Positions 13,801 to 64,000 of a stretch of DNA of 64,000 bases are shown here, in pieces (position 1 is the stretch's first letter; every line of letters starts with the position of its first letter). Source of the stretch: Polytrichum commune (Eukaryota; Streptophyta; Polytrichopsida; Polytrichales; Polytrichaceae). The notes under the pieces are model-generated. The model was not told the DNA's origin, made no database searches, and saw only the letters and a program-made list of their open reading frames with translations. The stretch spans positions 34,362,144 through 34,426,143 of the forward strand of contig OX485809.1 in assembly GCA_950295325.1 (NCBI GenBank), given 5' to 3'. The position numbers and the translations under genes were made by a program.

Positions 13801-16675
13801 CAAAAAGATGTACATTGGACTAAATTTTCTTAGTTGATTACTAGTGTGAGAACATCAATGACATAACTTGTTACTATGGTTTCTGTAACTTACTTTTGTG
13901 ATTGGGCGCATGTTTTCAACAATGTCCACAATTTGAAAGGAACCTTGTTTGCTTTTGCGAATTGGCTTCTGCCCAGTGATCATCATCTGCTCCCAATCCC
14001 CAAAAAATAATTGACTTCCATAAATATCTTGCTGCAATTTGAAAACCTCTAGCTAACTTTCACCTTTTACCAAACTGAGAGCAAGCTGGAAATACAGGAC
14101 ACAACAGCCCTAGAGATTAAGTTCCATTCAAGAGGTGTAAGCATCTTTTAGCAACGATTGCAACAAGATAATGGGTCTATATTGCAAGCCAAATTAGTAT
14201 TCAATAATGACAAGGCACATCCTGCCTGATTTTAAAGAAATACCACCATAAGACAGATTCAGCTCAAGGCCCACACCCTTAAGGATATGAGGCCACCATA
14301 TAGCAGTTTCAGTACAACTCAAATTCCGATGCAAAGATAATAGAGTTATCCCCTAACCCAACATGACTTTTGGTCGGAAGTCTGTTATTTTGCATAAAAT
14401 ACCTTCCATGACCGGAAATTTTGGGCTGCATGCTTTGAGGTAGTTTGGAGGATTGAACAAAGATTATTCTATAATCGTTCATTGTGGATCAGACTCTTTT
14501 TGGCATGCTAACAGATGCTAAAATGAGTTTGGCCCTCAATGAACCCAAAAAGGTTGCTCTTCACTCAAATCCCAAACACTGCCTCCAAGCATGCACCATC
14601 ACAAGTGGAAACAAATTATTGATATTGTATGCAAAACAACCAATTAAAAATCAGAGGGAACCAACTCCCAACGTAAAGTCCCATTGAGCTAAAAGGATTA
14701 CTCTAATGAGCAATGGAATAGCTCCAAGAGAATCAACACTTGACCAGTTCCATTACAAGCCTCGAGTTGAATTTCCTAAGTTGAAAGATGAAATGGTTAC
14801 TAAGAATTTTATACCATTGGAAAGCCTGCTAGCTGAGCATAAGCAGCTGCTGTTGCAAAATTTGTTGCACCCGGGCCAAGAGTTGAAAGGCAACAACCAG
14901 CCTTGCCAGTGAGGCGACCCACAGTCGCAGCCATGAATCCTGCAGCTTGCTCATGCCTTGTGACTACCAGTTTGATGGAAGAATTTTTGAGTGAGTCCAA
15001 CAAATCCAAATTCTCCTCCCCAGGTATCCCAAATATATACCTGCAAATCCCAATGGACAAATCTTCATCTTCATCTAATATGCAAAACATGAGAAAGAAG
15101 GTAACCCATAAGGAATGTGGGTGTTATTCATATTCTCCAACTTCTAATAATTAGAGTTACACAACAAAACTTGTATTGCATTAACAAATCTACAAATCTA
15201 CAATGAAAATTGGATTGAAAATCGGACCTTTCCTGATTTAGTCATGTTTATCATAAGTGCATGATTGTTATTTCTTTAACTGAATCCATAGGTCCTCCCA
15301 ATTGTGTACTCCTGAGTGTGGAGTAGTTAATAAAATTTGAAGTCGTAGTTCAATCGCTTTTAAACAAGTTTCTTTATGGTGTTAGTTTCTTTATGGTGTT
15401 TGTTCTTTGATCCTCACCTCACCACACACCAATCAAATATAAGGGTCCATTTTTGAAAAGTAACTGAATAAAACCCACATACCTCATTCCACAACATAAA
15501 AAACACACATACTACACACTGGTATATCATAATAATGTCCACATTTGATGTTCTTCCAGCCAGCACCGATCTCAAATATGCAGGCCTTTCATGGTCCCTT
15601 TATTTAATCAGACAGCTATATTTTGAGCGGTGTTGTGTTTAGTTGTGGATCTAAGAACGGACACCGAAAAGGCATCATGTCTTTGAAAGAGATTGGACTA
15701 CATGCTCAGAATTTGTTAACCCTTCTAGGCTCAATAGTCCACATAATTGGGGGGACCTATATGAGCACTTAATGAGCTCAAGAATTTTCACTTTAATAAT
15801 GAATAACCAATTCATATGAGCTCCAAAACTTAATGAGGCGAATGGCTACGGACACGATTTGGAATTCGCAATTATCTCGCACTAATTGCATGTTTAGAAT
15901 CCTCCCAGAAGTAGGTGCAGAGCTAAGAGCGTGTCCATTCAAGGCCTGCTTACCTTACACACAACTTACTGTGGCTAGTCTAGAGGAGAAGTTCTCAATG
16001 AATAGGAAATCTCTCTTCTCAACTGTGGACATTGTTGAGAAGGTCAGTCTCACACACTTGGGACTGTCAAATTCCTTAGTTGTATTTGAATCAAACTCAA
16101 ATAAAGTAGGATGTGGATTTCAAGCAGCAAATTTGAAAGTCCCTATGCTGAATTTTTCTCTCGTCTTAGGGAATAGCATTGTCAGACATTTTACACTACA
16201 CAATTCGGACTCGGCTGCTGACTTGTAACCTCAAATATGTTAAGCTCTAAATCTCCAAGATGGATATATCTCACGCTCTTTCAAGTGGCTCATTCTACAG
16301 CTGCAAAACAAGTATTAGGGTAAACATAGATACATGTCAATTTCTTACCAAACCTCAAGTCTACCTACAAGTTCAGAGGGATTCAGCTGAGACATAAAAA
16401 ATGCCCTCTGGATCTTCATCTCCATTCTCACTCAGCATGTCAATGCCATACTACCGCTCATACATTCGAAAGTGACCATAATCCCCAACACTCGGAGGCA
16501 GAACTAGGTAATCACAAGACCCAGAAAATTTAGTGCAAAATACTCCTCAAATCTTGATACCCAGAGACAACTGAAAATGCCAAAAATTCACAAAGAGCTT
16601 CACTTACTCAATATTTTCGTTCTCCAGGGCTTTGACCATCACATCAGACGTCTTTTGCACTCCATCAGACGCCAT
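7874..16675 (-). CDS. Bacterial-type acetolactate-synthase-like ThDP enzyme, 17 exons, 601 aa
   Basis: Exons read by hand (minus strand, 5' to 3'): 16675-16608, 15040-14815, 13986-13894, 13360-13079, 12935-12875, 12693-12560, 12055-11936, 11762-11670, 11329-11241, 11116-11076, 10542-10508, 10230-10084, 9619-9513, 9346-9299, 9087-8988, 8140-8048, 7942-7874. All introns are GT-AG and the total is 1806 nt with no internal stop. The fold is the ThDP-dependent decarboxylase family: N-terminal pyrimidine-binding domain with catalytic Glu (TRHEQ, about residue 53), GPGATN loop, ITGQKPI, central domain, and C-terminal ThDP/Mg motif GDGG (about 454) to NDN (about 481-483). The wording (IFGIPGEENLDLL, AATVGRLTGKAG, INVGHDVVEKPPF, YFPQLEVVGDIA) matches bacterial catabolic-type acetolactate synthases, not plastid AHAS. 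The expected reaction is two pyruvate to acetolactate plus CO2. No transit peptide is seen, so it is probably cytosolic. The last two exons add a basic tail of about 35 residues. The exon 6 donor (12560, GTATAA) was chosen to keep frame over a stronger-looking GTATGT three bases upstream. Confidence 0.9.
8474..8796. mobile_element. Foldback MITE, copy 1, in intron 15 of the synthase gene
   Basis: The two halves are inverted repeats: GGGAGTTGGTTGTTTT near the left end and AAAACAACCAACTCCC near the right, with a central inverted stretch around CCAAACTCATTTTGGC / GCCAAAATGAGTTTGG. It shares ends and core with the elements at 13399-13742 and 14343-14703. The left tip is diverged. Confidence 0.8.
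10660..11030. repeat. Dispersed repeat in intron 10 of the synthase gene (partner about 58840-59210)
   Basis: The two copies share an ordered set of blocks rich in ATGGTAT and ATACC motifs: AATGGTATCAA, TTTGGGTCAATACCAT, TTGCATGGTATACACC, CAAATACCCA and GAAAACCTCATTA. They are the same orientation and strongly diverged. It carries no coding capacity. Confidence 0.75.
12191..12453. mobile_element. Foldback element in intron 6 of the synthase gene
   Basis: The first about 75 bases and the last about 75 bases are imperfect inverted repeats: GCCTAACCTTTGGGAGCTTG on the left against CCCAAGGTTAGGC on the right, ending GGTGAGCCAA / TTGGCCCACC. It is noncoding and the target duplication is not clear. 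This is a MITE-like hairpin unrelated to the three-copy family in the same gene. Confidence 0.75.
13399..13742. mobile_element. Foldback MITE, copy 2, in intron 3 of the synthase gene
   Basis: The right end (ACCAAAAGTCATGTTGGGTT then AGAGGATGACTC, followed by TA) is the inverted complement of the left end of the copy at 14343. The left end (GATGGGACTTTTTGTCGGGA) matches the inverted right end of that copy. It has the same GCATGCCAAA / TGAGTTTG core as the other copies. Confidence 0.8.
14343..14703. mobile_element. Foldback MITE, copy 3, in intron 2 of the synthase gene
   Basis: The tips GAGTTATCC and GGATTACTC are flanked by TA on each side (14341-14342 and 14704-14705), followed inward by long inverted repeats. 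It is 361 bp. This is the best-preserved copy and defines the family ends. Confidence 0.82.
15775..15930. repeat. Dispersed repeat (partner 17878-18030), in intron 1 of the synthase gene
   Basis: Both copies run through a similar order of words (TTAATGAGC, TTTCACTTT, ATTCATATG, CTCCAAAA, GGCTAC, TTTGGAAT, TGCATGTTT or TCATGTGTTT). They are diverged direct copies of an unrecognised repeat. Confidence 0.6.
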
Positions 16676-19269: not shown

Positions 19270-22200
19270 CCGTAGCACCATAGTTGGTTCGTGCAAAAAT
19301 AATTCCCAAATAAAAAACCGAAAATTTATGAGTCCAATCAAACGAATAACTGAAAAAATATATTAGAAAAAAAACGAATAATGAAAAATTTGGACTCTTC
19401 TAAGCTCCAACCACGTCAACACGCTATAAGAGGCTGCATGATTACGTGTTAATGGCTGGGCGCCCTGCTCACGAGCTTCACGAGGTTGCTCAAGTCACGG
19501 GACAAAAACACCAAGCACTGCCCAACGCTACCTATAAAATGCCTTGCCTTCATCTTGCCTGGGAATTGTAGAGGAGGGGCTCATGAGGGCAAGGAAACCC
19601 AAAGGCTTATACACAGGGAGTAGCTCTACCAACCTATACCTAGCCGTTGTTTTTGTGCTTTTATATTTGCAAATCATGTTGTTCTCATTTGTTAGGGGAT
19701 TAGGGCATGAGCTAATTCCTGAGGTTTTGACTCGCCACCTTCCCATTTGCTTGAATGATCATTTGATGTAATTGCTAGTTGATGTTCAAGTAGAGAGATT
19801 TGTGGTCCATCTACATGGTCAACATTGATGATGAAAGCAAGAAATTGAAAGAAAGACAGCCTCCAAAACTAGATGATGCAGGCCTTGAAGACTGTGCGTT
19901 GCCTCTTGAGGGAATTCAAGTACTTTTGTGCTCATGGAGATTTAAGTTCTCCTTGGCTACTTAAACTATGATGTGGTTGCTTGAATCATGTTCTAGTATA
20001 GCACTACTATATTCAATGTGATGACTTCATGTTGTTTGCCACGGTTTTTCTCCAGTTTGTTTCCTATTCTGCTCGTCACGGCCTTGTCGCGCGCAAACGG
20101 TGTCCTGCTGGTGTCACACACAAAGGTAGGGAACCTTTGCTTCCTACAGGTTTCGTGTCGCGCTTCTACGGAGCTCCTTCTTGAAGAATACATCGTATCA
20201 TGTCATAAGTTAGTATGTACAAGGGAGGGAATTGATGCAGCGATGATAATGATGATATCGCATTTTATGGCTACAGGAGGTTCTTGATTTTCTGTAGGAG
20301 CTTGGAACAGAAAATGTGAAGGATGTCCATCGCAGCTTAGCCGAAGTGTTTATCGGAATTCCGTACATTCTGTGAACTGTCAAATAAATGTAAAGTGCAA
20401 TGTATCCTCTCATCAACTCCGAAGTTTCTGACCATTTACAACCTTGTGTAGTAGACACCGTGTTTGCTCAGATGACTTCATTGATACCTCAAATTGTTTT
20501 GTATGAACTCGAAGGACTTGTGTTCCTACTTATCACAGAGGTCCAGGTCAAGCCTCGCCAGCAGATAGTTTTAGGATCCTGTGTTGTCCCTGTTGATTTA
20601 GAATAGTGATTGCTGATTTCCTGCGAGAGAAGTGATCGCTGTTATATAAACGTAAAGTGCAATGCATCCTCTCATCAACCCCGAGGTTTCTGAACATTTA
20701 TAATGCAATGAGCTATCTTAGAAGTGATGAAGATTACATGATGATGGAAAGTTGTGTTTCAGAATGACATTAAAGGCTATAATGATTTTCTCATGAAGAC
20801 AGGTGTTGACGTCTTGAGGCTCGATAAAGTAAGCATGACTGGCTTCTGTAAACAAATATTTGATGGACAATAAGTGGGTGATATGGATATATGTACTACC
20901 TTTTTTTCTTTGAATGTGAACTTTGACGAGGACGTGAAAGTGTGGTCCTGATTATGCTCATTTCAGTAGGCATTTTGTTTGGCAGCTGAGAAAGCACGAT
21001 CAGCTGCGGATAGTCTTAGAGAAGTAATAAACACAAAGGTATTTAGTAAGTTGTGCTTTATCAGTAAGCAAAGAAAAATATTTAAGATATACATTTGAGG
21101 ATTTGGAGAGGATGTTGGGAGAATTTTTTGAAGGTAAGACCCGCATAGACCAGAGAAGGTGAGCTGTGTTAAAAATGAACATCATACGTAGACAATGATG
21201 ACAATGTTACGTAGACAATGGTGGTTAGTTGAATGACTTGTGCAACATTCAATTTCATGTGTAAATTCCGAACACATATTTATGCAAATGATAAACTGTA
21301 AAATATTATACTTACACAATCAAAATTGTCACTTCTTTCTAGCTAGATTTCTAATAGTACTCATACTGCTGGAAGAAATAGACTTTGGCAATTCAACAAC
21401 CTTTGTTAATCTCTCTTCCATAACAGTGTCTAAAGACACTTCAACGTCTATCTCCTCATTGCACTCTGTGTTGTATGTATGAACCTCATCTTCAACTGTC
21501 TTGAATAATGGTGTTTTTATGTTGTCCAACATAGCTTGCTTTTGAAATTCTTTGTCAAAAGCACGTAGGAGTCCAGTCTGCTCCCAACCCTTAAGGACCA
21601 TAGCAATCCGACTTGAGACATTTGTCTATGCAACATAGAGCCACTCACATATCTGAGGCTTTAGTTTGCTCATTTTGAAGTCCATGTAAACATCCTCACA
21701 TGCCTTCAGTTGCTTTGCTATAGCCTCCATAGTATACTTGTTAAATGTTTGTCGAAATGCATGTTTGAATGGTCGTTGAATAATAACATTTGCAGGCTGA
21801 TAGATACTTGTGCAATTTGCTGGAATATAAAGAATGTGAATTTTGGGGTGATGATTCTTCATCCACTCCCGAAATTCTTTGCTGATGTGAACACTCCAGC
21901 AATCAATGAGCCAAATCATCTCTTGCATTGCTGGAAGGTTCAATAATTCCACTTGTGAGTCCTTATACGGTACCAATATCTTCTCCACGAACTCTTTGCA
22001 TGTGTCCAAAGTAGACCAATGGTTATGGCTGAAAGTCAAATTCCATCCTGCATGTTTACAATCATACCTCCCCCCTTCTAACTTCGGTAGACTTTTGCTA
22101 GTTATCCCTTGGAAAATTGCCTAGAAAGGGAGGCATTTTCCACTAGCTGCAGAAGATACTGTCACAGTATTTTTTCGTTTGTCATCTTGTCCGTGTATTT

Positions 22201-23443
22201 TAATATGCTTAGTACCATTCATTTCCCATATTCTACTACCACGTGTAGGAACAAGATGTATCCCAGTTTGGTCAGTATTCACAACTAATTCTAAAGAAAT
22301 GTTGTGAACACTTATCAAATATGCACATCTTTGAGCCATAGCCTTCCCTTGGTCCTCATAATCTTTTGGTAGTTTTCCTGCTGCACTGGTTGCTGCTCAG
22401 TAACTCCAATTCAATTCACTCTTCACAAAATTCTTAGTCCAAGCATACGAAACACTAAACGAGATCTTGTGCATGCCTTCTAAGAGTTCTGGAGCTTTCT
22501 CTTGGATTATGGCCTTTATAAGTGGTTGAATGCAAACTACATATAAAGGTTGGTCTGCCTTTCTTTGATTCTTAAGAATGGCACAAATCTCATCCTTCAG
22601 AATTGGATTAGATTCCAAGATTGGGCAGTGTTGTGCAGTTTTGGCAAAGTATGTACCAAAATCGACACAACATTTATAGGTCTCCTTCAAATCTCCATTC
22701 GGATGAAACCATTCTCGCATAGAGCTCTTAGATAAATTTTCATAGACATAAGAAAGATCTCCTGGTTTTCTATAAGCTAACCTAAGAAAACTCCATGCCT
22801 CTATGATATTACGATGTTGTTTTACAGCCTTGTAAATAGGAGGCCAGAGAGTAGGGGTAAACCAATTGGTGTATGAACCTTTGACCTTCTTTGGCTTGGT
22901 AATTGGCTTTATCCTCTCAACCTTTGGCTTTAGTAGCATTGTTTGTCTCTCCTTCCTTGGTCTCCCTACTGGCCGCTTGAATGTCTCCTTTTTGGGCCTT
23001 GATTGCTCCACCTGCAATCTCTCACTCAAAGCGGCAAACTCTCTTTCTATATCCATCTCCCTTTCTTCCTTGCTAATAGAGATAAAAGAAAAATCAACCC
23101 GTCGTTGTTTTGGTGCCATTTCTAACACTCTTCTCGCACATATCAAAGTGCAAATACATACAAAAGACCTAACACACACATTGTGCAAAGACAGACAAGA
23201 GCCACACTTAGTAAGGTTAAGGTGGATACTTAGGTTTAAGGCCAAGAAGCTGCCACGAATGAATGAAAAAAACAACAACCTACTTGCACAACCGTTGGAC
23301 CTTAACAGAAAAACGAATTAATTTTTTTCAAATCATAGGATGGACGAAATTTCATAAATTATATTTTTTGTTGACGAACCTTATTTTTCAAAAAATAAAT
23401 AAATATTCGTTTTGAGGTGCACGAACAAGCTATGGTGCTACGG
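19270..23443 (-). mobile_element. Pogo-like DNA transposon, about 4.17 kb
   Basis: The left tip CCGTAGCACCATAGTTGGTT and right tip (complement CCGTAGCACCATAGCTTGTT) are inverted repeats, each next to a TA dinucleotide (19268-19269 and 23444-23445). The transposase lies on the minus strand at 21329-23278. The remaining 1.8 kb (about 19.5-21.3 kb) is not transposase and includes a short duplicated segment (near 20390 and 20648). It is the evident parent type of the 627-bp deletion derivative at 2564-3190. Confidence 0.9.
21329..23278 (-). pseudogene. Decayed pogo/Tigger-type DDE transposase
   Basis: One reading frame of about 650 codons runs through the whole stretch, interrupted by three in-frame stops: TGA just 5' of 22397, TAG at 22121-22123 and TAG at 21626-21628. 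The N-terminal part is basic, with an AT-hook-like VGRPRKER, then a helix-rich DNA-binding region. The DDE core is visible: NTDQTG (first Asp), WLIDCWSVH (second Asp), and a block CTSIYQPANVIIQRPFKHAF where the family usually has Asp and this copy has Asn. A C-terminal tail follows to 21329. Nonsense codons plus the changed third acidic residue indicate an inactive enzyme. Assignment to the pogo/jerky-like group rests on the TA target, the DDE spacing and the PANV.PFK block. Confidence 0.85.
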
Positions 23444-26232: not shown

Positions 26233-27897
26233 GATGTTTAGCATTAATATTTTGATCTTTTTGTATTAAAGTAGTCATAATTAAGGTGGGATGTCACTAA
26301 ACTAATGAAAATGATGGCTCATTTGCACATGTAATGTGGCCCCAAGTTTCAAAACATCCGGTTTCACCTCTCTGGTCTGAGACAACTTTTGTGAAAACCT
26401 CTAGTTTTGTGACCTCCCCTTGAGAGGCCCTGAGAGGCTTGGTCTGTTGTTTAAGGGCTAAGGCTCTTGGAACTTTAGACTAAAAAGTGAGGGTTGGAGG
26501 AAGTGTTGCATGTGAACTTTGAACCTCTCATCCATCTCTAAAAGCACATGGATATCGGGACTTGAATGGATGAGACGGACTTATCGTATACGAGCATACC
26601 TCTCATCCATCCAATATTAAAACTTGACCCCCTACATATTTGTTGCCAATTCATCTCAAATGACCTCGAGTCGATGAAGTTGGGGTCTTTTAAGCTAATT
26701 TTGGTGTCATATCAACTTTAAAAAGAAACTTTTGAGATATATACTATTTCAAGCTTTTGTGTTGGATGAATGAGAGGTATTCTCATATACAACAATTCCC
26801 TCTCTCCGACTTGGACAACACATTTGTCGATGAAAATTATCATGCATCACTCCAAATCCTGTAAATCTACCTCTAGGGTACTAGATTTGCAAATTGTTTC
26901 ACCAACACAGTTGTTCAAGTCTCACATGTTTACATAATGCATCCATATGAAAAACCCGCCCCCTATAGGTTTGTAGTCAGTTGATTTAAGATATGTCCTA
27001 GTCAACTAGTTTGGGTTCATTGAAGGTAAGTGTGTTCTTTCAATTATCTAAACATTGACCAAGTCTCCTCTGCATACTATTTCAATACATTATCGTTGGA
27101 TGAATGAGAGGAACTCTCTTACACAATAATTACCTGCATGGCTTTGATCAACATGTTTCCAACTCACTACAAGCATATGAGTTCTTGACAATTGACCTAT
27201 GTCACTATAAACTTGTCCTATATAACTGAGAAAATTTGCAAATCTAGTAGTGGTAGAAATGCATTGTTCTTTCATCGACATGGGACGATTGCATAGTACT
27301 TGTATGCTAAGTTAGTAGAGATGCATAAAGCGAGATTTATCTGTGATTCATCTTAACTCAAAAGCTAAAACAATGCTAGAGAATTTCACAGTTGCAGAAT
27401 GAATTCTGATTCACTTTCAAGATCATGAAACTTCAGCGCTGCTTTCTTTCTCAATCAGAGTCTCAGAGTTGGCTTGCCGAGGAGGAAAACAAACTCCAAA
27501 CAAGCACCAAAAGGTACAGACAAACACAAGCCACATCATTGTCAACTGTTGGTTACTTGGTCAGAAATTCCGGGCTTATGTCCTTTGGGCGGTATCTGAG
27601 CTGCAGCCGGGAGCTTTCTCCAGAAAGCTCGTCAGCCTGAGTCACTAAGAAATTCCCGCACTGTACGTCCACACTTAGCACAGACTAGCGATTTCAGTGA
27701 TTCAAGACTTGCTAATATATACATGTTGTAGCATGTATTCAATTCATCTTGCACTACTCTCTGTTCATGCCTGGACTGCATCGATTGTTTCTGCATACAG
27801 CATTGCTCTTCCTCCAAGCTAGTGTGTGGAGGATCTAACTTACTGATCAGAACTCCGACTGTTGTTCAATCTTTGCACGACATATATTGATTCAGCT
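26233..27897. other. Intergenic; contains the germin promoter region
   Basis: 26.2-27.3 kb holds two loosely repeated segments (GAATGAGAGGTATTCTCATATACAAC near 26.77 kb and GAATGAGAGGAACTCTCTTACACAAT near 27.10 kb), so an old tandem duplication of about 340 bp is likely. From about 27.4 kb on, base composition changes toward the germin gene. TAATATATAC near 27712 is a possible TATA box about 185 bases before the ATG. Confidence 0.5.
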
Positions 27898-28753
27898 ATG
27901 GAGAGTCGTGTCCAGCTCAGCCGACGTGCTTGGGTGCTACTCTTGGCATTCTCATGCCTGCTTGCGCATGAATTGGTCCATGCCTCCGATCCTGACCCCT
28001 TGCAAGATTTCTGCGTGGCCGACTTCTCTACGAATGCGCCGCGTGTGAATGGCTACCCCTGCAAACTGCGCTCGAATGTGACGGCCAAGGACTTCGTGTT
28101 CACCGGCCTTCGGAGCGGCCCGGCTGGCTATGGTAAATTGCCTCGTTTATCATAACTCATATCATCAATGTGTGCTATTAGTAAGTGAATGTTGTGGTTT
28201 CTTCAGTTAGCTGCACAATTCTCTCGACCATTCTCTGTACTGAAATCTCCAATAGGTAAATCTCTGACATGTTGTCCATGTTCCACCAGCTTCCGATCCT
28301 TCCATCACAGGCACAAATGCTGTTGCCACATTGGCAGTTGTGAATGAGTTTCCAGGAGTCAACACTCAAGGGGTCTCGCACCTCAGACTCGACTTTGGCA
28401 TCGGCGGCGTCATCCCCATCCACACCCACCCTCTTGCAGCAGAGACGCTTATAGTGTTGAAGGGATCGATCTACACGGGCTTCATCAGCGACGACAACGT
28501 CTTGTATGCTTCCACCCTGCAGGTTGGGGACCTCACTATCTTCCCAAAGGGCACCCAACATTTCCAGCTAAATGTTGGGAACGAAACCGCCGTCACATTC
28601 AATACTCTGACCTCACAGAACCCGGGATTCTTTTTGACAGCAAACCAAGTGTTTGAGACTGGTGTTCCAAGTGCAGTTCTGGAGAAGTCGTTCGGCATCA
28701 ACGCGAAGGCGGTGAAGAGCATTCAGGGCTCCATTCCTCGATACTGGGGCTAG
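27898..28753 (+). CDS. Germin-like protein (cupin), two exons, 232 aa
   Basis: Exon 1 is 27898-28132 and exon 2 is 28290-28753, with a GTAAAT donor and CAG acceptor that restore frame (TAT G / CT TCC). The N-terminus is a signal peptide ([18 protein letters not shown]). The mature protein begins [14 protein letters not shown] with the two early Cys of germins (FCVAD, YPCK). Germin box A is HTHPLAAET and box B is [16 protein letters not shown]. Together they supply the three His and one Glu that bind Mn. Length matches the family. Germin-like proteins are secreted, hexameric apoplastic cupins, some with superoxide dismutase or oxalate oxidase activity. Which activity this one has cannot be told. 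The gene appears intact. Confidence 0.95.
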
Positions 28754-35804: not shown

Positions 35805-36650
35805 AAGGCAGCAAACACCCCTTCGCTTAAATGGCCATAACTTTTGTTAACAAGCTTTAATTGGAACAATTGTTAGTAATCTAGAAAGCTAACAACAAGA
35901 ACTATAACTCATCCAATTATGAAAGAAACTACATATATCTTCTTAGAGATATGAGCTTACAAAATCAGCTCCTAGAATTCAAGAGGCAGCTGGGATACCT
36001 TCATTCAACCATCCATAATTTATGCTTATTAACTTAGATTCCAGCAAGCTTAGACTTTCTAGAAACCTTAAAATCAGATCTACAACTACTCCAAAGATCA
36101 AAACAATTGCATGCTTCCTCTTGCGGGTATGAACTTACAAAGTCAGCTCTTATATTTTAGGAGGCAGCTGGGATACCTTCATTCAAACATTCATTACTCT
36201 CACACCTTAAATTTGATTGTAACAACCTTATACTTTCTACAATGCTAACAACAAGAACTATAACCCATTTAAATATCAAAGAAACTGGATCATTTCTCTT
36301 TTAGTTATGCGCTTGCAAAGTCAGTACTTGTAGTTTGAGAGGCAACTGAAACACCTTCATTAAAACACTCATAACTTTCACACATCAAATCAGATTCAAG
36401 TATGCTTATACATTCTAAATAGCTAAAAACAAGAACTATAACAACTTTAAATACTAAAGTAACTGAATGACTTTTCTTTTAGTTATGCGCTTGCAAAGTC
36501 AACGCTTGTAATTTAAGAGGCAGTTGAGACACCTTCATTCAAACACTCATAACTTTTGCAATCTAATTCCGATTCTAACAATCTTAGGCTTTTTGGAAAG
36601 CTAACATAAAAGACTACATTCACTTAAAATATGAAGGCTAAATTGTAATT
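35805..36650. repeat. 178-bp tandem array, about 4.7 units
   Basis: The landmark GAGGCAGCTG / GAGGCAACTG / GAGGCAGTTG starts at 35983, 36161, 36339 and 36517, exactly 178 bases apart each time. A weaker unit starts at about 35805. Each unit carries ACACCTTCATTCAAAC, AACAACAAGAACTATAAC and GCGCTTGCAAAGTCA-type blocks in the same order. Confidence 0.93.
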
Positions 36651-40400: not shown

Positions 40401-41890
40401 AATACACCAATGCTAAGACAAAGGTTTAATCAAGTACTCATAAGCATACCTGCTCGGGTTAGCAACGATGCTACAACCCGAGTAGGTATATCAGAACAGT
40501 ATGAAAATGACAATTATGATGATGTGGAAAGCGGGCCTAGCGCTCCGCCAAATACAATGTATGCGGGGACGTCCTCTGATTATATTCATAGTAGAGAGGA
40601 CGAAACACTGCACAAGGTCATTTCACAACCAAAATCGAATTCAAAACCTTATAAAAGAAGTAAACTAAACATAGATTGTTTTGGATTTCCGGCCGGTGAA
40701 AATAACAAAGTTTTTTTTATCTCGAGTGAGGACATTAGTACATCATTACTTGAGAGATGTACATGTCAAATGGATTGTTTTTAAAAAAAATTCAGCTTCT
40801 TCTAGCATTATGGGAAAAATGAGGAAGCAATTTCCTGGATAATGAAACGACGCTTGTGTATATGCTATGATAAGTAGCATACGACGTCAAAAAATGTGCA
40901 AGTTGAGAAAGCTCGCCATCAGTGGAGGTAAGTTTATGATTATGTTTATGATAATTGAAATTTTATATCTTTTATTATTGCTTCAAGAATGTGAGATTTC
41001 AATGAATTGATTTTTTATATAGGTGAAAGGCCACCTAATTGTACTGCAACAAACCTTTTTTTATTCGAGAGGCCAGAGAGCACGTTCGAAATCCAACCTG
41101 GAATGAACAACAACGGAAAGCCTCTCAAATTCATTTAGGTCCTAGGTCCAAATTTGAAAGCGGCGGAGCAAGATCTTTTGCTCGAAAATTTGTAAGTTTA
41201 TTAAATCCTAAATTTATTTTTACGTAGTTTTTTGAATAATATGGTAATTATTCCAACTGATTTGAATGACATTGTTTCTTACCAGGAAGAGATGTTTGGG
41301 GTACAACCGACTACGGAGCAAATTAACAAAGCCAAATTGGTTGGCTTGAAGGAGTTTTTTAATACATTTGATATAAGTGAATTAGTATATAAAGAAGCAT
41401 ATTAAACTTATAGAAATGTAAATTCGGGTTCGGAAAGCTGGTAATGAATATTTGTTTTGAAAGTTATTTTCACAACTTGTTTGTGAAGGCATTGAGTTTG
41501 TGTGCCTAAAATCTCAGTTTTTGAATAGGTTTTGACGAATGTCGGTTGTTGCAGAGATGTGGATTATTGGATTGTATGCTCATGCAGGGTTGTACGTAAA
41601 TACTTTACACAATTCTCTGCACAAAGAATATTTATTGTGTTCCTGCTTCAATTAACCCTTAAAACAAATTGCATAAATTCACTGCACATTTATTTTGTGG
41701 TTGATGCTGTCTCTTCGGCATTTTGTCGAGTATTAAAGTTCTTCCTCTCAAACAAGGGGTTGGTCTACAACAGGAGGTGATATGCAATGAGGTGCCCAAT
41801 AGATGCAAAAATGAATAACCTTGGTATGTTGGTTTTATCAGAGGTTGATGTTACCCACTTTGTTGCTTTCACCTCGAATTTGATCGGTTA
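40400..41890. other. Unrecognised coding-like fragments between CACTA relic and TIR-NBS pseudogene
   Basis: An open frame at 40410-40784 (Ser/Asn-rich, ending CTCQMDCF) and short frames at 41030-41170 (PNCTATNLFLFERPES) and 41285-41400 (EMFGVQPTTEQINKAKLVGLKEFF) look like former exons, possibly of the second CACTA gene. No family could be assigned. A 147-bp repeat lies at 41684-41830. Confidence 0.4.
41684..41830 (+). repeat. 147-bp direct repeat, copy 1 (partner 44269-44412)
   Basis: Both copies begin CACATTTATTTTGTGGTT and run through CTCTTCGGCATTTTGTC, GGGGTTGGTCTACAA and GGAGGTGATATGCAATGAGG to ATAACCTTGGT with about 90 percent identity by eye. They bracket the TIR-NBS pseudogene. Confidence 0.9.
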
Positions 41891-44265
41891 GGAGGTGGTG
41901 CAGTATGCATGTCACGTTTGATGACGGATGTTGGGGATTTCAAGATAGTCTTGACTTTTACAGGATCAAAAATCATCAACAAAGAGGTGCTCGAAAACAT
42001 GAGGTCACAGTGGTCATTGTGTTGGAGGGGTTCCCGACATCCAAGTGGCCCGTAACGGAGCTCATCAAATTCGTGGACGCTAAGAAATCAAGGCTGCTAA
42101 ATAAACCCAACCCTAACTACAACCCCAACTTGAGGATTGTTCCCGTCTTCTACAAAACAAGTCCAGATGACCTTAATAAAGATCTCTTGGACAATCTCTG
42201 GAACAAGCTGGTCAAAAAACTTGGAAAAAATGACACAAGGTTGAGGTTTGATGTGGAAAAATATGAAGAGGCAATTGGTCAGCTGTTAATAATCACCGAA
42301 CTGAAGAATATGCATGGAAAGAATGAAAAAAAGTACCGGAACGAAGTGGTGAAACAAATCTTGCAGCTTTTGCCTCCGGCATTACCAATTGATACTTCTG
42401 GCATTGAAGGTTGCGAGCGGCTGTGTTAGGTGTGTGTAAGTTTTATAAATCAAGTCTCATAAAATAAATCACCGGTTGTATATTAATTGCGTTGGACAAA
42501 TTTTGGGTGCAGTTGCAATTAATCAGTTTTTTTGTTTCATGACCTTTTGCTTGGTCCGTTGGTGGTGGTTACTCTCAGTGCATAATTGGAATGTTTGAAA
42601 GGAAAGACGTGGAACGCAAGGGAAAACCTGTGCAAAGAAATTATCTAGGTTTATTTGGCAGGGTAGGAATGGGGAAAACAATCATATGTTGTGAAGCCAT
42701 GTGCAATTTTTACCAAGGGCGATATATATGCTCTGAATATCCCGGGCGGTTTTGTTGTGTGAGGCTGGACAGTGAGAAATGTGGCGAGGGTAAATTTGCT
42801 GACAGGCAAGTTGCGGTCATCAAACACCGATTAGCCAGGCTAATGGCCGTAATAAAGCAATTGGCTGGGGTGCCCAAGAGCATGTCAACAATTATGACAG
42901 AATATGAGGTAATAAATAAGGGTCGTAAACTTGCGTTATTTATATCGTTATCCTTCTATGATTTGTTTGCTAACTTGTTTGTATACTTGTTTTGTTTGGT
43001 TTTTGAATACAAATGAGACGATTATTTACTTGTTTATGACAAGTTCATGCCAATTATAAGCTTCATGTAAGAGGCGATAAACTAACTATATTTTGCACTA
43101 TATTTTGCACTAATTAACGAAGTCTGGTCTGACTTCGACCTGGTTTAAAATCTCAATACGACCTTAGCTGGGATTCAATTGTAGGGTAACATGTTGAATT
43201 TTGTGGATGCACTGCAGGGCAAGACGTATTTAAGAAACCATTTGGATCACATGAAGCGAGTTGTGTTTCTGGTTGTGGATGATGTTTCGGTTACCACTCA
43301 GGACGAAGCGAAATGGTATGTGAGTTGCGAGTTTCAGACAAACAGTTTCGTGTTAGTGACATCCAGGCGTTGCGATCTTCTGGAGTATGTGCTAAAAGAT
43401 CAAATGTATTGCAAGTTTTTTCCCAATCTAGATCCTAAAGAAGCTCGATTTCTTTTTCTGTCCAATGCTGCTCCGAGCAAAAAATCCCTTGTGACATCAA
43501 GTGAAGCTCAAGATGTCATTGTGGACGATTATCTTACTTTGGAGGAGTTCGAAGTTGTGGAAGAATGCCTTCGGAGATGCTGTGTCAACAAAAACTTTAT
43601 TCCAAGGATGTTGGCCACGTTTGCTTCCTTCCTCAAGAACAAAGGAAGCATTATGCGCTGGAAGGAGTATGTCAATTATGCCGACAACGTCATTGGGTAA
43701 GAATAGGATGCTCTCGACGATACCTCAAAACTCATATTTCTGGACCTCGCAATTTTTGCCAAAGAGATGCGTTACACACACATGGATTTTCACGCCGAGC
43801 TAGAGTGGGAAGAGCATGATAACTCCAGGCTGCTCACAACCGAGTTCCTTGCCATGTTGCATGGTACACCGCGGAGAAGAAGGTTGGGTGCATCCTTATT
43901 CCAATTCAGTGATATCATCCATGGGCTTCTAGTATTAAAAGTACATAAATATTTGTTACGTGTGTTTTTCAATACTTTGGGGATGGTAATTATCTGTATC
44001 ACCTGCACGTGTCAACGACTTTTGAAATTTTGCAAAAATTTCAATTTTAGGAAGTTGTATTAAGGAGCCACTGTTGTATTGCAAGCATTTCGAAATCTAG
44101 GAATATTATGAATTTCTATGAACGTCCGGATGGTTATCCCCGGGTGACAAAATAGCTTACTGAGATCTGATTTTTGGTTCTAGATCATTCATGTGCAGGT
44201 GAAAGATCTGCAGCACTCCTTCCTGAATGACTCAGACATTTTGGTCTCCAAAGATTGCTCTGGGC
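41890..44265 (+). pseudogene. TIR-NBS disease-resistance-like gene, decayed
   Basis: The first block (41905-42427) is TIR-like: VTVVIVLEGFPTSKWPVTELIKFV and RIVPVFYKTSPDDLN correspond to the second half of a plant TIR domain. The second (from about 42575) is the NB-ARC P-loop: GLFGRVGMGKTI. An intron (donor at 42909, acceptor near 43184) leads to the third block. There the kinase-2 motif VVFLVVDD, RNBS-B FVLVTSRR and an RNBS-C-like FFPNLDPKEARFLF are visible. The ARC2-like segment DTSKLIFLDLAIF follows in the same frame, but only after TAA (43698-43700) and TAG (43704-43706). A TAG also closes the TIR block at 42427-42429. No LRR region is seen. Such proteins are cytosolic immune receptors, and this copy is probably dead. 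Confidence 0.8.
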
Positions 44266-58620: not shown

Positions 58621-59435
58621 ATAAGTGACCCACCCAGGGTTTAACTCACAAAAAGAGGCGACCCTTCTTCAGAGGACCTGTCTCTCCCATCCCACAGCAT
58701 GTTGCTAGAAGTCCTGTCAGACACACATGTCAATATTAATGTTTTGGAGGATCACCTTGAAAATAACCTTGAAATATTCTGCACAATCTTCTACACATCC
58801 TAACCCCTCCCTAAAAGGAAGTCTGAATCCATGTTGGACTGGAATGAAGACGAATGCATGGTATCATTGTCAAAATATCAATGATGGTATCAACGAGCCT
58901 ATATCATCAAAATTGTTATCCCGGTCAAATATTGCTAGTTGATGGATATCACAAGATGAGAAAATCTTTGTATACCTAAATCACCATTTGGGCCAATACC
59001 ATCCTAATACCGAATTGATTCTAGCCTGGTACTTATACCTGTGTATGAAGGGGTTTGTAGGTTCTTTGCATGGTATATACACCTGTTGGGTATCTTAAAC
59101 AAAACTATCCTCAAATACCCACACCCCTACCAATACAAATATTGAAATATTGAAAACCTCATTAAACATACCCAAGTGGAATCAAAAAAATATGAAACCT
59201 GTCCACTGGTTTGACCTAATTCCCTTGTTCCAATCCTAGCACTATCGGCCATACCAAGACTAATAACAAGCTAAATTTGTTGAATCACCCAAAGAATGCT
59301 ATCAGCAATGCAGATTCAATTCAACAAAATTCCTGATAAGACCACATGCACTTTGATCACAAGACCCTTACCTCAAATCAATAAAATGATTTCCGACGCG
59401 CAGAAACAGCGCTTCCCCAACCCTGCCTTGAGCAT
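58621..59435. other. 3' flank of the NAA40-MAP kinase gene with a dispersed repeat
   Basis: The segment about 58840-59210 is the second copy of the repeat in intron 10 of the synthase gene. The rest holds no recognisable feature. No poly(A) tract is seen directly after the kinase stop on the minus strand. Confidence 0.6.
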
Positions 59436-62400
59436 CTACTGGGCGTTGATAGCAGCAGCCTCCCTCCAGATGAGACATTTCACATGTTCAACGGTGAGAT
59501 TGGGCAAGTAAGAATCAAAATCAAACATAAGCGGACACGTTGGCTCATCACTTGGATCATGCAGTGCTGCAAGATATGGATGAGCCAAGGCCTCCTCCGC
59601 AGTAATCCGGTTGGTTGGATTGAACTGTAGCATCTTCTCCGCTAAGTCACATGCTATTGCAGTTGTATTAGGGAACTTGGACACCAACGGTTTCCGTTCC
59701 TGACCCAACAGAGCACTCTGTATCCTCTGGCGAGCATCCGGGTTCTGTAGAAACAAAAGATCAGTTTCATCTGGTGTTCCTAAAAGCTCCGTAATGAGCT
59801 TCAAGTGATTGACAGGGTGCTCTTGTCGCGATCGAATTGGAAACAAAGGCTGCCCAGTCAGCATTTCCATGAATATACAACCAACCGACCACATGTCAAC
59901 AGCTGCAGTGTAATTTCGACTCCCAAGTAAAAGCTCTGGGGCTCTGTACGGTCTCGTTACCACATACTCCGTTAGAAAATCATCCTCCGACGATGTCCGA
60001 GCCAGGCCAAAATCACAGATTTTTAGTAAACAATCATTGCAGTTGATTAAAAGGTTACTTGGCTTGAGGTCCCGGTGCAATATATTGGCGGAGTGGATGT
60101 ATTTCAGGCCTCGCAGAAGCTGGTAAAGAAGAAACTGGCAGTGGTATTCATCCAGTTTTGTGGATCTCACCACTTGATGAAGGTCTGTATCCATCAGCTC
60201 ATTAGCAATGTACGCATCATGAAAATCCTCTATTTTGGCTGGCACAATTATGTCTCTAATGGGGATAATATTGTCATGCTCCGTGTGCCGAAGTAGCAGA
60301 ATTTCTCGCAGCGTACGTCTAGCAGTCATGTTGTTCTGAAATGCATTCCCAATCTTCTTGATTGCAACTTTCTCCCCAGTTTCTATGTTAGTGAAAGCAC
60401 ACACATCACCATACGCTCCATGTCCCACAGGCCCAATCATGCTGTACTTGTCATAAACCTCAAACTCATCCCCCCGCACATTGTAGCGTGCATAATTCAT
60501 ACTACGCCCGATCACTCTCTGGAAGTCCCCGTGCGACTCGTAATCCATATCCATTTGTTGCTTGTCCAAGACTTCACCCCCGTTTGCATCAAAAGCCTTA
60601 AAATGTCCTCTCTGGTAATCAGTCTGAGACTCGCAATCTGTATCCCCTTGTTGGTCCTCCACAATTGCACTTTGCTGCTCAGGCAATACTTTGCAAAGGA
60701 TCTCATAGTTCATCACTGCTCCAGTCTGGCAAGGCAAAATAAAAATCAGTCAATACTCCCAATGTCGTACATACATCACAAACTTCCCAACATAAAATTA
60801 TCATGTAGAAACAATGCAATTATGATACATTAATCATAAAATTATGATTTCAACATTGTCTACATGATAATTTTGCCTCCAGAAATTATAATGAAGGCAC
60901 CACCAAATAAATGCATTAAACTCAAATGGAATTGATACACTCTATAGACTTGCCAGCTTGAGCACAGTAAATAATATTCCACATCTCATCAGGGACCATC
61001 CACATACCTGAGCGTCACCCCATGTGGAGGGAAAAAGAGATACAATGTTGTACCTGCATCACAAATTATGGCAGAGTTCAATAAAAGGTTCAAATGACCG
61101 GAATTATTGCTTAAGGAACTCAGTAATTAACTTTCCACTCAATTTACACTATTGAGAAGACAAACAAATTCTAAACTTTGATACCAATTGATTTTCAAGT
61201 CCATTTCAGATATGCCTAAAATGGATGAGAGCTAATCTAAGAAAGTCGATGTCAAGTTCTAAGAGGAACTGCTCACCCTAATTTTGCAGTGAAGAAACCC
61301 AACGTCCTTGTGTTCCTTTTCTGAACACCTAGAAGTACAGCTCTCATGTTGTTCTGCAAATCAGGACACATGGAAAGGCCTTGAATTAATGATTTCCCAA
61401 AAACCTCCTGGTAAAAATTCTCTGAGCATTATACTTTGATAACAAATAAATGACATGAACTGCTGATTTAAGGAGATTCCCTACAGTGTGTTGGAAAACT
61501 ATTTGGGTTGCATGGAGGCTGAGGAGTTAAACCAAAGGCAAAAGGTGATAAAGAGAAGCAAGTGAAGGATATTGAGCAATTGAACCAACAAAGGCATAGC
61601 CAACTATCAATACAAGCAACCAGTGAATCTGTTGCGAAAGCATACCTTGCAGGCAACCATCTCAAGTAGCTGCATCAGAAACTCACCGAGTCCCCTTCCT
61701 TGAACTAATTTTTCCAGCTGAATCTCATAGGCAAAAAGTGCTGGAACCTCATATTCCAAAACGAATCTGTAATGGACAAATGCCACCACTGGATTACCTT
61801 CACCTGTCCACAACCCTCTATTGCTTGCTTCCATTTCTTTTCTTTCATTGGAGCTACAGTCTTCCCTGACAAAAATGTAGCGTGCATCAGGAGATACCAT
61901 ATCCTTGTGCTTCAAATTCTCTTCTGCAGGCCACTCATGAGGCCCATATAGAACCTCCATGTTTATCTGCTCTGCCACAAAAATATTTGTAATGAGGATC
62001 ACAGAGTTAATTAAACAATACAATTTAACTTCAGTGTCCAAGACATCGAACTATAAAACAAGGTTAGTCAATAAGACGGGTGGCAAAAAGTCTGACCTTC
62101 AGAAGCTTCTGTATGTATTGTTTCAATGGAGGAGACAGAGAATCACCAGAGCCTGCTTCCAATATTAACTTCAGGCCTGCATGAAAGACAATTCCTGTCA
62201 ATTCGCTAACCTCCCAATCCATAGTCGGCATGGGCTCAAGAACTGACATGAGCTGAAGCATATCTGCTTGACCTTTAAAAACCTACTCTAAGAGTGTCTT
62301 ACAACCAAGAAGAAATCTAAAATCTCAGTTAAAAACCCGAGACCGTCTCGCTTCACTTTACACTAGCAATTGAGGGCCTAAGGGACCAAGAAAGCCTGAA

Positions 62401-63553
62401 TAGACCAAAAACCTACATGGAATCCTACGTGGCATGCAATGGATAATGTTCCATGGTCAACTGCATTGTGCATCAAGCCTACAACTTTGAGGCAGGTCTA
62501 ACAAAAACCAGGAGACCATAACACTTCAAAATCCCACCACCTTGATTGATTGTAACTTATTGTGTAGAAGGGCCCACATGAATAGGATGGTAACAAAATA
62601 GCATTCAGTTAAGAGCCCGGCCATGTATGCCTCTACACTTCATTTAAAAGGCCTGTGACCACACAAATTTCAATTTCAATTGCCATGGTCCAGCCTTTAT
62701 ATGAGTTTCAAGAACCCTTGCAATTTCATGGTCACGGCCCTTGGCCATGGTGTAAGTGACCCTAAGAGTAGTGAAACAATGGAAGAAAAAAAAACACAAA
62801 TGGGGACAGTTACTTTGGTTTGTTGAATAAAAAACTTCTCAGAGCATCAAATATATTTGCAATGAGTCATGATGGGCTAAAACCTCCAAATTTGATAGAC
62901 TCACCATTTTGCTCGTATCTGCAATAAGAGGGAAATTCCTCTATAGGGTTGGCCTTGGCAGATGCAGCAATAACAGAAGATTCTCCTTCGGCAAGCTCCT
63001 ATGATTGCAGGATACCAAAATCACATTTCAATGAGTACTTAAGGTAGAGCATGCTTAAACCAACACCCTAAAATCTTGCACTACAAGTAACATATTGATT
63101 TTAAGAGTGTCCACTTCCTCCTTAACATCATCAGGCTCCCGTGTTGATGGTTTTGGGTCATCTACCAATAACACTGTGAAGCCTCATAGCTTTTGTATAC
63201 GAAATTCTAAAGATATATACTTTGGGGCGTTGGAATGTCCTTTCAATTGCTAACGAGAACCATCCAAAACTTCATCAATCTAATAATACCAACAGTAGAT
63301 ACACTTTGACCTTAAAGTGATGGTTTTAGCACCATCTACCTTAAAGAGTTCTGAGCATAGTTCCGGCAATGCAGGTAAGTTAACGGCAGTGAAAGTATAG
63401 GAGAAATGGATTTATCGGCTCAAGCAGGCCTGTCTGTCTGTAATCACTCTGCCCCTTTGCACATCACCATAACTACAACCCTTTGGTATACCAAATATGT
63501 CTATATTGCGCAATACTACTTCAAGGTGCCACAGTACAAACCTGAAGAGTCAT
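59436..63553 (-). CDS. NAA40 (NatD) N-alpha-acetyltransferase fused to MAP kinase, 7 exons, 639 aa
   Basis: Exons (minus, 5' to 3'): 63553-63542, 62998-62905, 62176-62097, 61966-61646, 61353-61277, 61053-61008, 60725-59436. All are GT-AG and frame-consistent (1920 nt). Residues 1-222 are NAA40: [54 protein letters not shown], acetyl-CoA motif QGRGLG (151-156), and C-terminal YEILCK (217-222). NatD acetylates the N-termini of histones H2A and H4. No stop follows. An acidic linker with an internal duplication leads into a complete kinase (about 303-599): GHGAYG, VAIKK (Lys about 333), HRDLKPSN (427-434), DFG (448-450), activation motif TEY (462-464), and common-docking segment [10 protein letters not shown]. 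The kinase is intronless, unlike most plant MAPK genes, which suggests a retrocopy. Trp of the usual TRWYRAPE is Pro here (469). The short first exon (MTLQ) is the least certain. A separate kinase transcript from an internal promoter is an alternative. Confidence 0.82.
60535..60668 (-). repeat. Internal duplication in the NAA40-kinase linker
   Basis: The coding text [17 protein letters not shown] and [17 protein letters not shown] are two copies of one acidic unit about 30 residues apart. The DNA shows the same duplication: both copies start CTCTCTGG on the plus strand and contain GACTCG-AATC. It lies between the NAA40 C-terminus and the kinase domain. Confidence 0.8.
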
Positions 63554-64000
63554 CTTGGTAGCAGAATTACAAGTGAAATGTATCAAAATCGCACCCAACC
63601 CACAGATCGACACACTGTAAATGGCCCAGTGCACAGATTAATATAGGGTTTTGGAGAGGAATTGTGTGGGAATGCCTGAAGATGATGTTACAAGAGAAGC
63701 GTAGATCCAAATCCTTCCGGTCATAGACTAAATCTCCAGAAGTTTCCACCGACAGAAGAAGAGTGTCTCGATCTTGTGAAAAAACCGAGTGCTTGTTGCG
63801 TGAAACAAACGGCATTACTCGTAGCGAACAAAATGAGCCACATTTCCCCCACCGACACCCGACAACGGTGCTTTTGAAACCCGGACATACCGACACCCTA
63901 ACCAACGGTCACTTCCAATCTCCTCTCCTCAAAACCTCAAAACCTCAAAATCAATCCAAACCCAAAACTCACAACTCACATAACCCACACACCCACGCCC
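63554..64000 (-). promoter_or_regulatory. 5' UTR and promoter side of the NAA40-kinase gene
   Basis: The minus strand upstream of the ATG. A 112-codon frame overlaps it (63905-63567) in a different frame and has no domain, so it could be an upstream ORF or chance. On the plus strand the last 80 bases are CAAAACC / CACACCC-rich. No definite TATA box is seen. Confidence 0.35.

Follow-up and report, generated by a model that had tools for sequence, protein, structure and literature searches.

Chimeric genes built around a kinase retrocopy have already been described in plants. The closest case is CHARK of rice, a retrogene joining a cytokinin receptor to a kinase, in which a Ser/Thr kinase is placed behind another domain and retroposition is supposed (PMC7814049). 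On a genome-wide scale, 57.3% of the retrocopies counted in Prosopis cineraria were classed as chimeric with nearby sequence (PMC9369113). We describe here a gene of this kind in Polytrichum commune, found in a window (the whole stretch of DNA analysed) of 64,000 nucleotides (nt) at C7:34362144-34426143. In this gene a copy of NAA40, which encodes the histone N-acetyltransferase NatD, continues in frame into a MAP kinase (MAPK). It differs from CHARK, a receptor chimera ascribed to trans-splicing together with retroposition (PMC7814049), in that its kinase is intronless and lies in the last exon of a gene that otherwise has introns, and in that a histone N-acetyltransferase is paired with a MAPK. 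The Prosopis survey is, unlike the present work, a genome-wide count, and no NatD or MAPK case is noted in the accessible part of that report (PMC9369113). NatD is described as monomeric (PMC9692967), whereas the copy examined here carries a kinase. A search of the open-access literature for an NAA40-kinase fusion gave none among the matches listed, which is weak evidence, most subscription journals being outside its coverage. As far as we have seen, the pairing of NAA40 with a MAPK is new, while the chimeric kinase retrogene as a kind of gene is already known in plants.

According to the comparisons presented below, the locus is probably an old chimeric gene, in which a second NAA40 copy received an intronless TEY-type MAPK at the position of its stop codon and the junction was apparently duplicated later, the product presumably being one bifunctional protein.

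Organization of the fused gene

The genome searched has a size of 408 Mb; it is divided into 64 contigs, of which seven are large. The fused gene lies on the minus strand (Table 1); its introns are all of the GT..AG type and its exon phases agree. With the first exon of the initial annotation, a piece encoding MTLQ, the translation is 639 amino acids (aa) long, and the numbering of this translation is used for all residue positions. As that annotation had stated, exon 7 begins with YEILCK of NAA40 and lacks a stop there, and the frame stays open through a linker and a complete MAPK. It ends near the natural MAPK C-terminus. The domain search that it had proposed for the 639-aa translation found both partners in Pfam, Acetyltransf_1 at 98-196 (E 3.1e-5) and Pkinase at 305-595 (E 1.7e-65). 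Open frames of the size of the linker are not frequent in this DNA: 788 of 16,804 sampled 64-codon stretches at positions 1-59000 were stop-free (4.7%). The chance of an in-frame link through the linker is thus about 1.6% (one frame in three times 4.7%), the kinase being excluded from the count.

The initial annotation also counted six exons as a full NAA40 and all six junctions as keeping phase. This stands for exons 2 to 6, which match NAA40, and for the GT..AG introns and consistent phase of the model as a whole; MTLQ, in contrast, is probably wrong as exon 1, and its junction is doubted. A likelier exon 1, MDRKKKSTGQE (donor GAG/GTGAGC, phase 0), was found 111-143 bases beyond the window, at the equivalent of 64111-64143 (C7:34426254-34426286). 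It resembles exon 1 of an NAA40 paralog on contig C2, MDRKKPTNSKEKKTKRKE with donor GAG/GTGAGT. By sequence alone the match is weak (11 residues, E 0.15-0.32), and we adopt this exon because the MDRKK start is identical and because phase, donor and position correspond. A scan of 62999-64000 for an exon with a paralog-like (MDRKK-type) start found none. Once this exon had been located beyond the window, MTLQ was set aside as the true start, and its exon is therefore probably part of an intron. The true exon 1 is probably the MDRKKKSTGQE exon, and the protein would then have 646 aa.

Table 1. Positions in the window of the parts of the fused NAA40-MAPK gene, with the basis of each assignment
Feature	Position	Strand	Basis
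Exon 1 of the initial annotation (MTLQ), probably intron 1	63542..63553	-	likelier exon 1 outside the window
NAA40 exon 2	62905..62998	-	aligns with human NAA40 and with exon 2 of the C2 paralog
NAA40 exon 3	62097..62176	-	exon model; comparison with the C2 paralog
NAA40 exon 4	61646..61966	-	Y69, W74, E133, Y142 and E143 align with human Y85, W90, E129, Y138 and E139
NAA40 exon 5	61277..61353	-	exon model; comparison with the C2 paralog
NAA40 exon 6	61008..61053	-	a 46-nt exon also fits in the C2 paralog
Exon 7: last NAA40 strand, linker, MAPK, stop	59436..60725	-	frame and domain matches
Linker unit 1, 31 codons, starting with NAA40 tail copy 1	60600..60692	-	self-comparison and tail comparison
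Linker unit 2 (31 codons), starting with the second copy of the NAA40 tail (like paralog KTFDADAKSILE) and including the probable MAPK start Met	60507..60599	-	tail-shuffle test; MAPK N-terminus comparison
Intronless MAPK	59439..60500	-	GHGAYG 311-316, VAIKK 330-334, HRDLKPSN 427-434, DFG 448-450, TEY 462-464, RPYRAPE 468-474; further motif 598-607

Probable duplication of the junction and maintenance of the frame

The linker is made of two 93-nt (31-codon) units arranged in tandem and in frame. They match at 52 of 93 nt and differ at the other 41; the best self-match, 44 of 63 nt, was reached by none of 1000 codon shuffles. Unit 1 starts with the window's own NAA40 tail. The start of unit 2 resembles the tail of the C2 paralog: at this position its score is equalled by 2 of 100,000 shuffled tails, and anywhere in residues 228-290 by 1 of 5000. 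Unit 2 then runs on into an apparent MAPK N-terminus, judged against GNVQGVPTHNGQYTQYN of B1, a MAPK gene of the same genome, and the probable MAPK start Met is kept (QQMDMDYES versus MDVATAEGNVQG). On the best reading of these data, the duplicated unit would span the NAA40/MAPK boundary, and the order before duplication would have been the NAA40 tail, two or three codons, and the MAPK start Met. The protein similarity and the predicted offset are our reasons for regarding the duplication as junction-spanning, the match between the tails being weak at the DNA level. Since a unit that spans the junction presupposes it, the duplication would be later than the fusion. With a duplicated junction of this type, a single genome might suffice both for dating a fusion at a stop codon and for testing its frame.

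The divergence between the units, K, is 0.67 over 93 nt, i.e. 0.33 per copy, and 0.39 over the best-matching 63 nt. We simulated unselected evolution at 0.33 substitutions per site, assuming a transition/transversion ratio of 2, a mutation bias towards AT and an indel rate equal to 5-10% of the substitution rate. In none of 4000 simulations did the 1251 nt that follow YEILCK stay free of stops. Only the fused protein needs the 135 nt that lie between YEILCK and the Met of the MAPK itself; this stretch was stop-free in 396 of 4000 simulations and, when stops and the assumed indels are considered jointly, its chance of staying open without selection is 0.003-0.017. At the lower K (0.39), the 192-nt linker was stop-free in 626 of 4000 simulations, a proportion to be multiplied by 0.052 for the absence of a frameshift. 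The openness test is moderate for the linker and strong for the kinase, and the constraint on the kinase may partly predate the fusion. Moreover, the 1290 nt of exon 7 have kept free of stops and of any net frameshift, though the silent sites of the kinase are saturated relative to the MAPKs of the genome. The locus looks like an old, frame-maintained chimeric gene.

We then considered whether NAA40 could be released from the kinase. Exon 7 encodes the last strand of NAA40 together with the kinase, and it has no stop ahead of the end of the kinase. A scan of the first 300 nt of exon 7 for a strong splice donor found none, the best candidates agreeing with at most 3 of 7 consensus positions, as against 4-6 of 7 for the six donors of the initial model, among which the exon 1 donor is doubted. 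Four poly-A hexamers were sought in intron 6 and the linker and none was found, a result that says little, five hexamers being also absent from the 536 nt that follow the kinase. Splicing or polyadenylation as a means of freeing NAA40 was set aside for want of a good donor, the poly-A test being empty. By the anatomy of this exon, a complete NAA40 read from the locus would carry the kinase, barring an unseen splicing or polyadenylation event.

The same anatomy bears on the possibility that the locus contains two units, the kinase being transcribed alone, with its own Met, from a promoter near intron 6 or in the linker, and the in-frame join being incidental. Such a kinase unit would account for the preservation of the probable MAPK start Met, and the kinase lineage, which appears older than the NAA40 duplication (see below), may have lived alone first. 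It would not account for the position of the last NAA40 strand in the kinase exon, without a stop and without a strong donor in the first 300 nt, nor for the in-frame 93-nt duplication, nor for the stretch from YEILCK to Met, which has stayed open against the low chance given above for 0.33 unselected substitutions per site. We therefore hold two separate units to be rather unlikely. An artefact, in which separate loci were misjoined or the kinase is spliced out as an intron-like stretch, appears very improbable. Our evidence comes from a single assembly; however, the window is without any N, and the junction lies inside one exon and is apparently duplicated and diverged, which a misjoin would not create. 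The splicing variant of this explanation meets the same weak donors of exon 7, compared with those of the modelled introns (the donor of exon 1 being doubted). We thus retain a single chimeric gene as the preferred reading.

The NAA40 half and its stand-alone paralog

When the first 222 residues were compared with PDB sequences, six matches had E <= 1e-3 (best E 6.5e-25), namely five NAA40 entries, one of them within an SMT3 fusion, and one yeast relative, C825.04c. Like NAA40/NatD, the fused copy has a GNAT core, and it keeps the substrate-loop Tyr and Trp as well as most of the key Glu/Tyr positions. Compared with human NAA40, Y85, W90, E129, Y138 and E139 are kept and three residues are replaced (D127 by V, Y136 by F and C137 by A); we take Y85, W90, C137 and E139 to be substrate-binding residues. 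D127, E129, Y136 and Y138 are named as such in PMC7790372. The loss of the beta3 Asp is reported for the streptophyte NAA40 cluster in the same paper (PMC7790372), and the fused protein, with V131 at this place, is like the streptophyte enzymes in this respect.

A search of the genome for NAA40 gave 14 matches: six belong to the window gene, four to C2 near 8.83 Mb, two to C3 and one to C6, and a weak one (E 1.4) lies at 31.29 Mb on C2. Seven exons make up the C2 gene near 8.83 Mb (modelled at 8832545-8837110, with the stop nine bases further on), and the fused NAA40 has the same seven-exon layout. The C2 gene ends with YEILCKTFDADAKSILEV followed by TGA, i.e. the stop comes just after the tail, which shows where the stop of the fused copy should be. 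The fused copy, unlike NatD enzymes of the usual type, has no stop, carries a kinase and has a shorter N-terminus than the C2 paralog. The 9.9 kb examined around the C2 gene (L061), which include 3 kb downstream, gave no kinase. The C2 paralog stands alone, as the initial annotation assumed for NatD. A fusion that predates the NAA40 duplication and was later lost from C2 was set aside as less likely, a kinase remnant not being found in this region, downstream part included.

The two NAA40 copies are identical at 148 of 229 residues. Their nonsynonymous and synonymous divergences (dN/dS) are 0.23/0.95 by NG86 and 0.25/0.76 by YN00, a ratio of about 0.25-0.33. Among 187 sites aligned with human NAA40, 17 are changed only in the window copy and 4 only in the C2 copy (p 0.007). 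On these comparisons, the fused NAA40 is a second copy, constrained but faster-evolving.

Pieces of NAA40 recur elsewhere in the genome. Fragments of exons 2-3 together with intron sequence (window 62129-63364) are found on C6 (L062, C6:21546500-21555500) with 97% identity, and pieces from the same interval on C3 (L063, C3:23996500-24006000) with 89-90%; they resemble captured gene pieces. In addition, a repeat located 3' of the kinase (58853-59205), with matches in both orientations, is 72-73% identical to an intron stretch of the C2 NAA40 (L061:5480-6045).

The MAPK half and its probable origin

The top matches of the last exon are Arabidopsis MPK4 (E 7e-129) and MPK6. The kinase is identical to MPK4 at 206 of 345 residues, to MPK6 at 209 of 345 and to ERK2 at 167 of 337. 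Its domain is complete, with TEY and the catalytic motifs GHGAYG, VAIKK, HRDLKPSN and DFG. Of the 157 sites invariant among MPK4, MPK6 and ERK2, it keeps 136, as against 46 of the 87 common to the plant proteins only (p 1.5e-8). Like the plant TEY-type MAPKs of groups A and B (MPK4, MPK6), it thus has the catalytic motifs, TEY and an LHDxxDEPxC stretch, which presumably has a docking role; unlike them, it has no introns, stands behind another enzyme and has a W->P change beside the activation loop. The motif IGNAF is common to the window kinase, MPK4 and the three nearest-type MAPKs of the genome, B1, B2 and B3.

Twelve loci from the MAPK search were fetched and five MAPK genes were modelled (L041-L045). 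The loci left unmodelled are L047 and L048 (MAPK-like, interrupted) and L046, L049, L051 and L052 (other kinases), and L050 corresponds to the window and its upstream side. The kinase is identical to B1 at 215 of 359 residues, to B2 at 219 of 359 and to B3 at 209 of 358 (about 58-61%), and to each of two group C-like genes at 188 of 353. These last two, L044 and L045 (C4:31.81 Mb and 31.85 Mb), lie in opposite orientation about 40 kb apart and share 365 of 373 residues.

The same genome thus holds an intronless copy beside intron-bearing kin: B1 has four introns, and B2 and B3 have five, at matching positions, whereas the window kinase has none. Since the related MAPKs are interrupted, the kinase is probably a retrocopy of a TEY-type MAPK, attached at the expected position of the NAA40 stop. 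The proposal of the initial annotation that NAA40 acquired an intronless MAPK copy at its end and lost its stop is well supported by the interrupted B1-B3 genes and by the stop of the C2 paralog. Its more general premise, that plant MAPKs are multi-exon genes, applies to B1-B3, but some plant MAPKs have few introns. In pepper, MAPK genes of groups A and B have 5-6 exons and those of group C one intron (PMC4585111), and each of the two group C-like genes found here also has one intron.

An origin of the kinase from viruses or prokaryotes was considered and set aside. No source was confirmed in viral contigs (one of eight viral scans), and a prokaryotic source was represented in genome contigs only by two distant bacterial matches (25-27%); such scans find close relatives only.

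At fourfold silent sites, the kinase matches B1 at 28 of 81, B2 at 21 of 82 and B3 at 23 of 80, compared with 20-21 expected by chance (20.6 for B2), whereas the NAA40 pair matches at 29 of 60 compared with 16.4. For B2, silent sites close to the chance level stand beside 219 of 359 identical residues, which speaks for a maintained kinase. Because the silent sites are saturated for the kinase and not for the NAA40 pair, the kinase lineage appears to predate the NAA40 duplication. The kinase copy may either have existed before it joined NAA40 or derive from another MAPK outside those found. Two further kinds of evidence were dropped: the dN/dS of the kinase, which is undefined since its silent sites are saturated, and the length differences of whole codons (five relative to MPK4), since differences of any other length cannot appear in an alignment of proteins.

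Evidence against a functional chimera

Several observations weigh against an old chimeric gene with two working halves. In the kinase, 21 of the 157 deeply conserved sites are changed, including W469P in RWYRAPE and G507I, and four residues are inserted after PLFP; kinase activity may have been altered or lost through W469P and this insertion. In the kinase tree it forms a very long branch, without a well-supported place in group A or B. As to the NAA40 half, it evolves more rapidly than the C2 paralog (17 changes versus 4) and has a shorter N-terminus, the basic segment of MDRKKKSTGQE, itself only the probable exon 1, falling short of the paralog's MDRKKPTNSKEKKTKRKE. The N-terminal segment of NAA40 is said to stabilise the core (PMC7367250), but a truncated form of Naa40 is reported still to work in yeast (PMC8037211), which softens this objection. 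Concerning the junction, the likeness of unit 2 to the NAA40 tail was noticed by eye before being tested, and the tail DNA is weakly similar (17 of 36 bases between the units, 19 of 36 between each unit and the paralog). Concerning retroposition, an A-rich 20-mer was sought in 58900-59435 and a target-site duplication in the two flanks, and neither was found, the longest word common to both flanks being 9 nt; poly-A tails and target-site duplications are said to be unstable marks (PMC7814049).

Some of these features would be expected of a dying chimeric pseudogene, formed when a retrocopy joined a redundant NAA40 copy, with the open frame as a leftover. A stand-alone NAA40 does exist, the fused copy is the faster-evolving one, and the changes in the kinase are unusual. 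However, a pseudogene would hardly be expected to retain 1290 nt without a stop or net frameshift while the silent sites of its kinase reached saturation, and frame survival in the absence of selection was 0 of 4000. The dN/dS of the NAA40 half (see above) and the retention of 136 of 157 deep kinase sites argue in the same direction, with the reservation that constraint on the kinase may partly predate the fusion. We consider a pseudogene improbable and still prefer a maintained chimeric gene.

Proposed mechanism

We propose the following scenario for this chimeric gene. A second NAA40 (NatD) copy would have gained an intronless TEY-type MAPK at the place of its stop codon, probably by retroposition, and a later in-frame duplication of the junction would have left some 60 residues as a linker. 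The gene would then be read as one spliced mRNA and translated into a protein of about 646 aa, composed of a streptophyte-type NatD domain, a putatively flexible linker and a MAPK with catalytic motifs. In the tethered state, the NatD part would bind the N-terminus of nascent or nuclear H4/H2A, and a MAPK kinase (MAPKK) could switch the TEY loop. As an outcome, MAPK activity might be brought to the ribosome or to chromatin, or the MAPK might control NatD. The housekeeping role would be left to the stand-alone gene on C2, so that the fused copy would be free to diverge.

In human cells, the NatD mark is described as blocking CK2 phosphorylation of H4 serine 1 (PMC7367250), and a kinase placed beside NatD would therefore have an obvious meaning. 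We speculate, tentatively, that the locus could encode an enzyme with two activities that has been maintained for a long time. Its kinase, switchable by a MAPKK, would be attached to the acetyltransferase capping H4/H2A. In this way both the acetylation and the phosphorylation of one histone tip (or of nascent histones) might be coupled to stress signalling, the paralog doing the routine NatD work. A fusion of NatD to a signalling kinase, next to an intact stand-alone NatD, would be a natural experiment on the coupling of the histone cap to signalling.

Other features of the window

Further features were noted outside the fused locus. On the minus strand, 12986-15123 contains a frame (14811-15123) that matches TPP_enzyme_N (E 2.8e-26) and a second one (12988-13387) that looks by eye like the same TPP enzyme, without a Pfam match. 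Also on the minus strand, at 21626-23317, lies a DDE transposase (DDE_1, E 1.6e-10), with an upstream open frame that has no Pfam match. On the plus strand, the frames at 41884-44063 suggest, on visual inspection, a resistance-type gene of the TIR / NB-ARC class; two pieces were scanned without a Pfam match. A germin-like (cupin) gene occupies 27847-28753 on the plus strand, its 28268-28750 part matching Cupin_1 (E 4.6e-27). Finally, a tandem array at 35880-36556 consists of 3.8 copies of a 178-nt unit with 74% matches.

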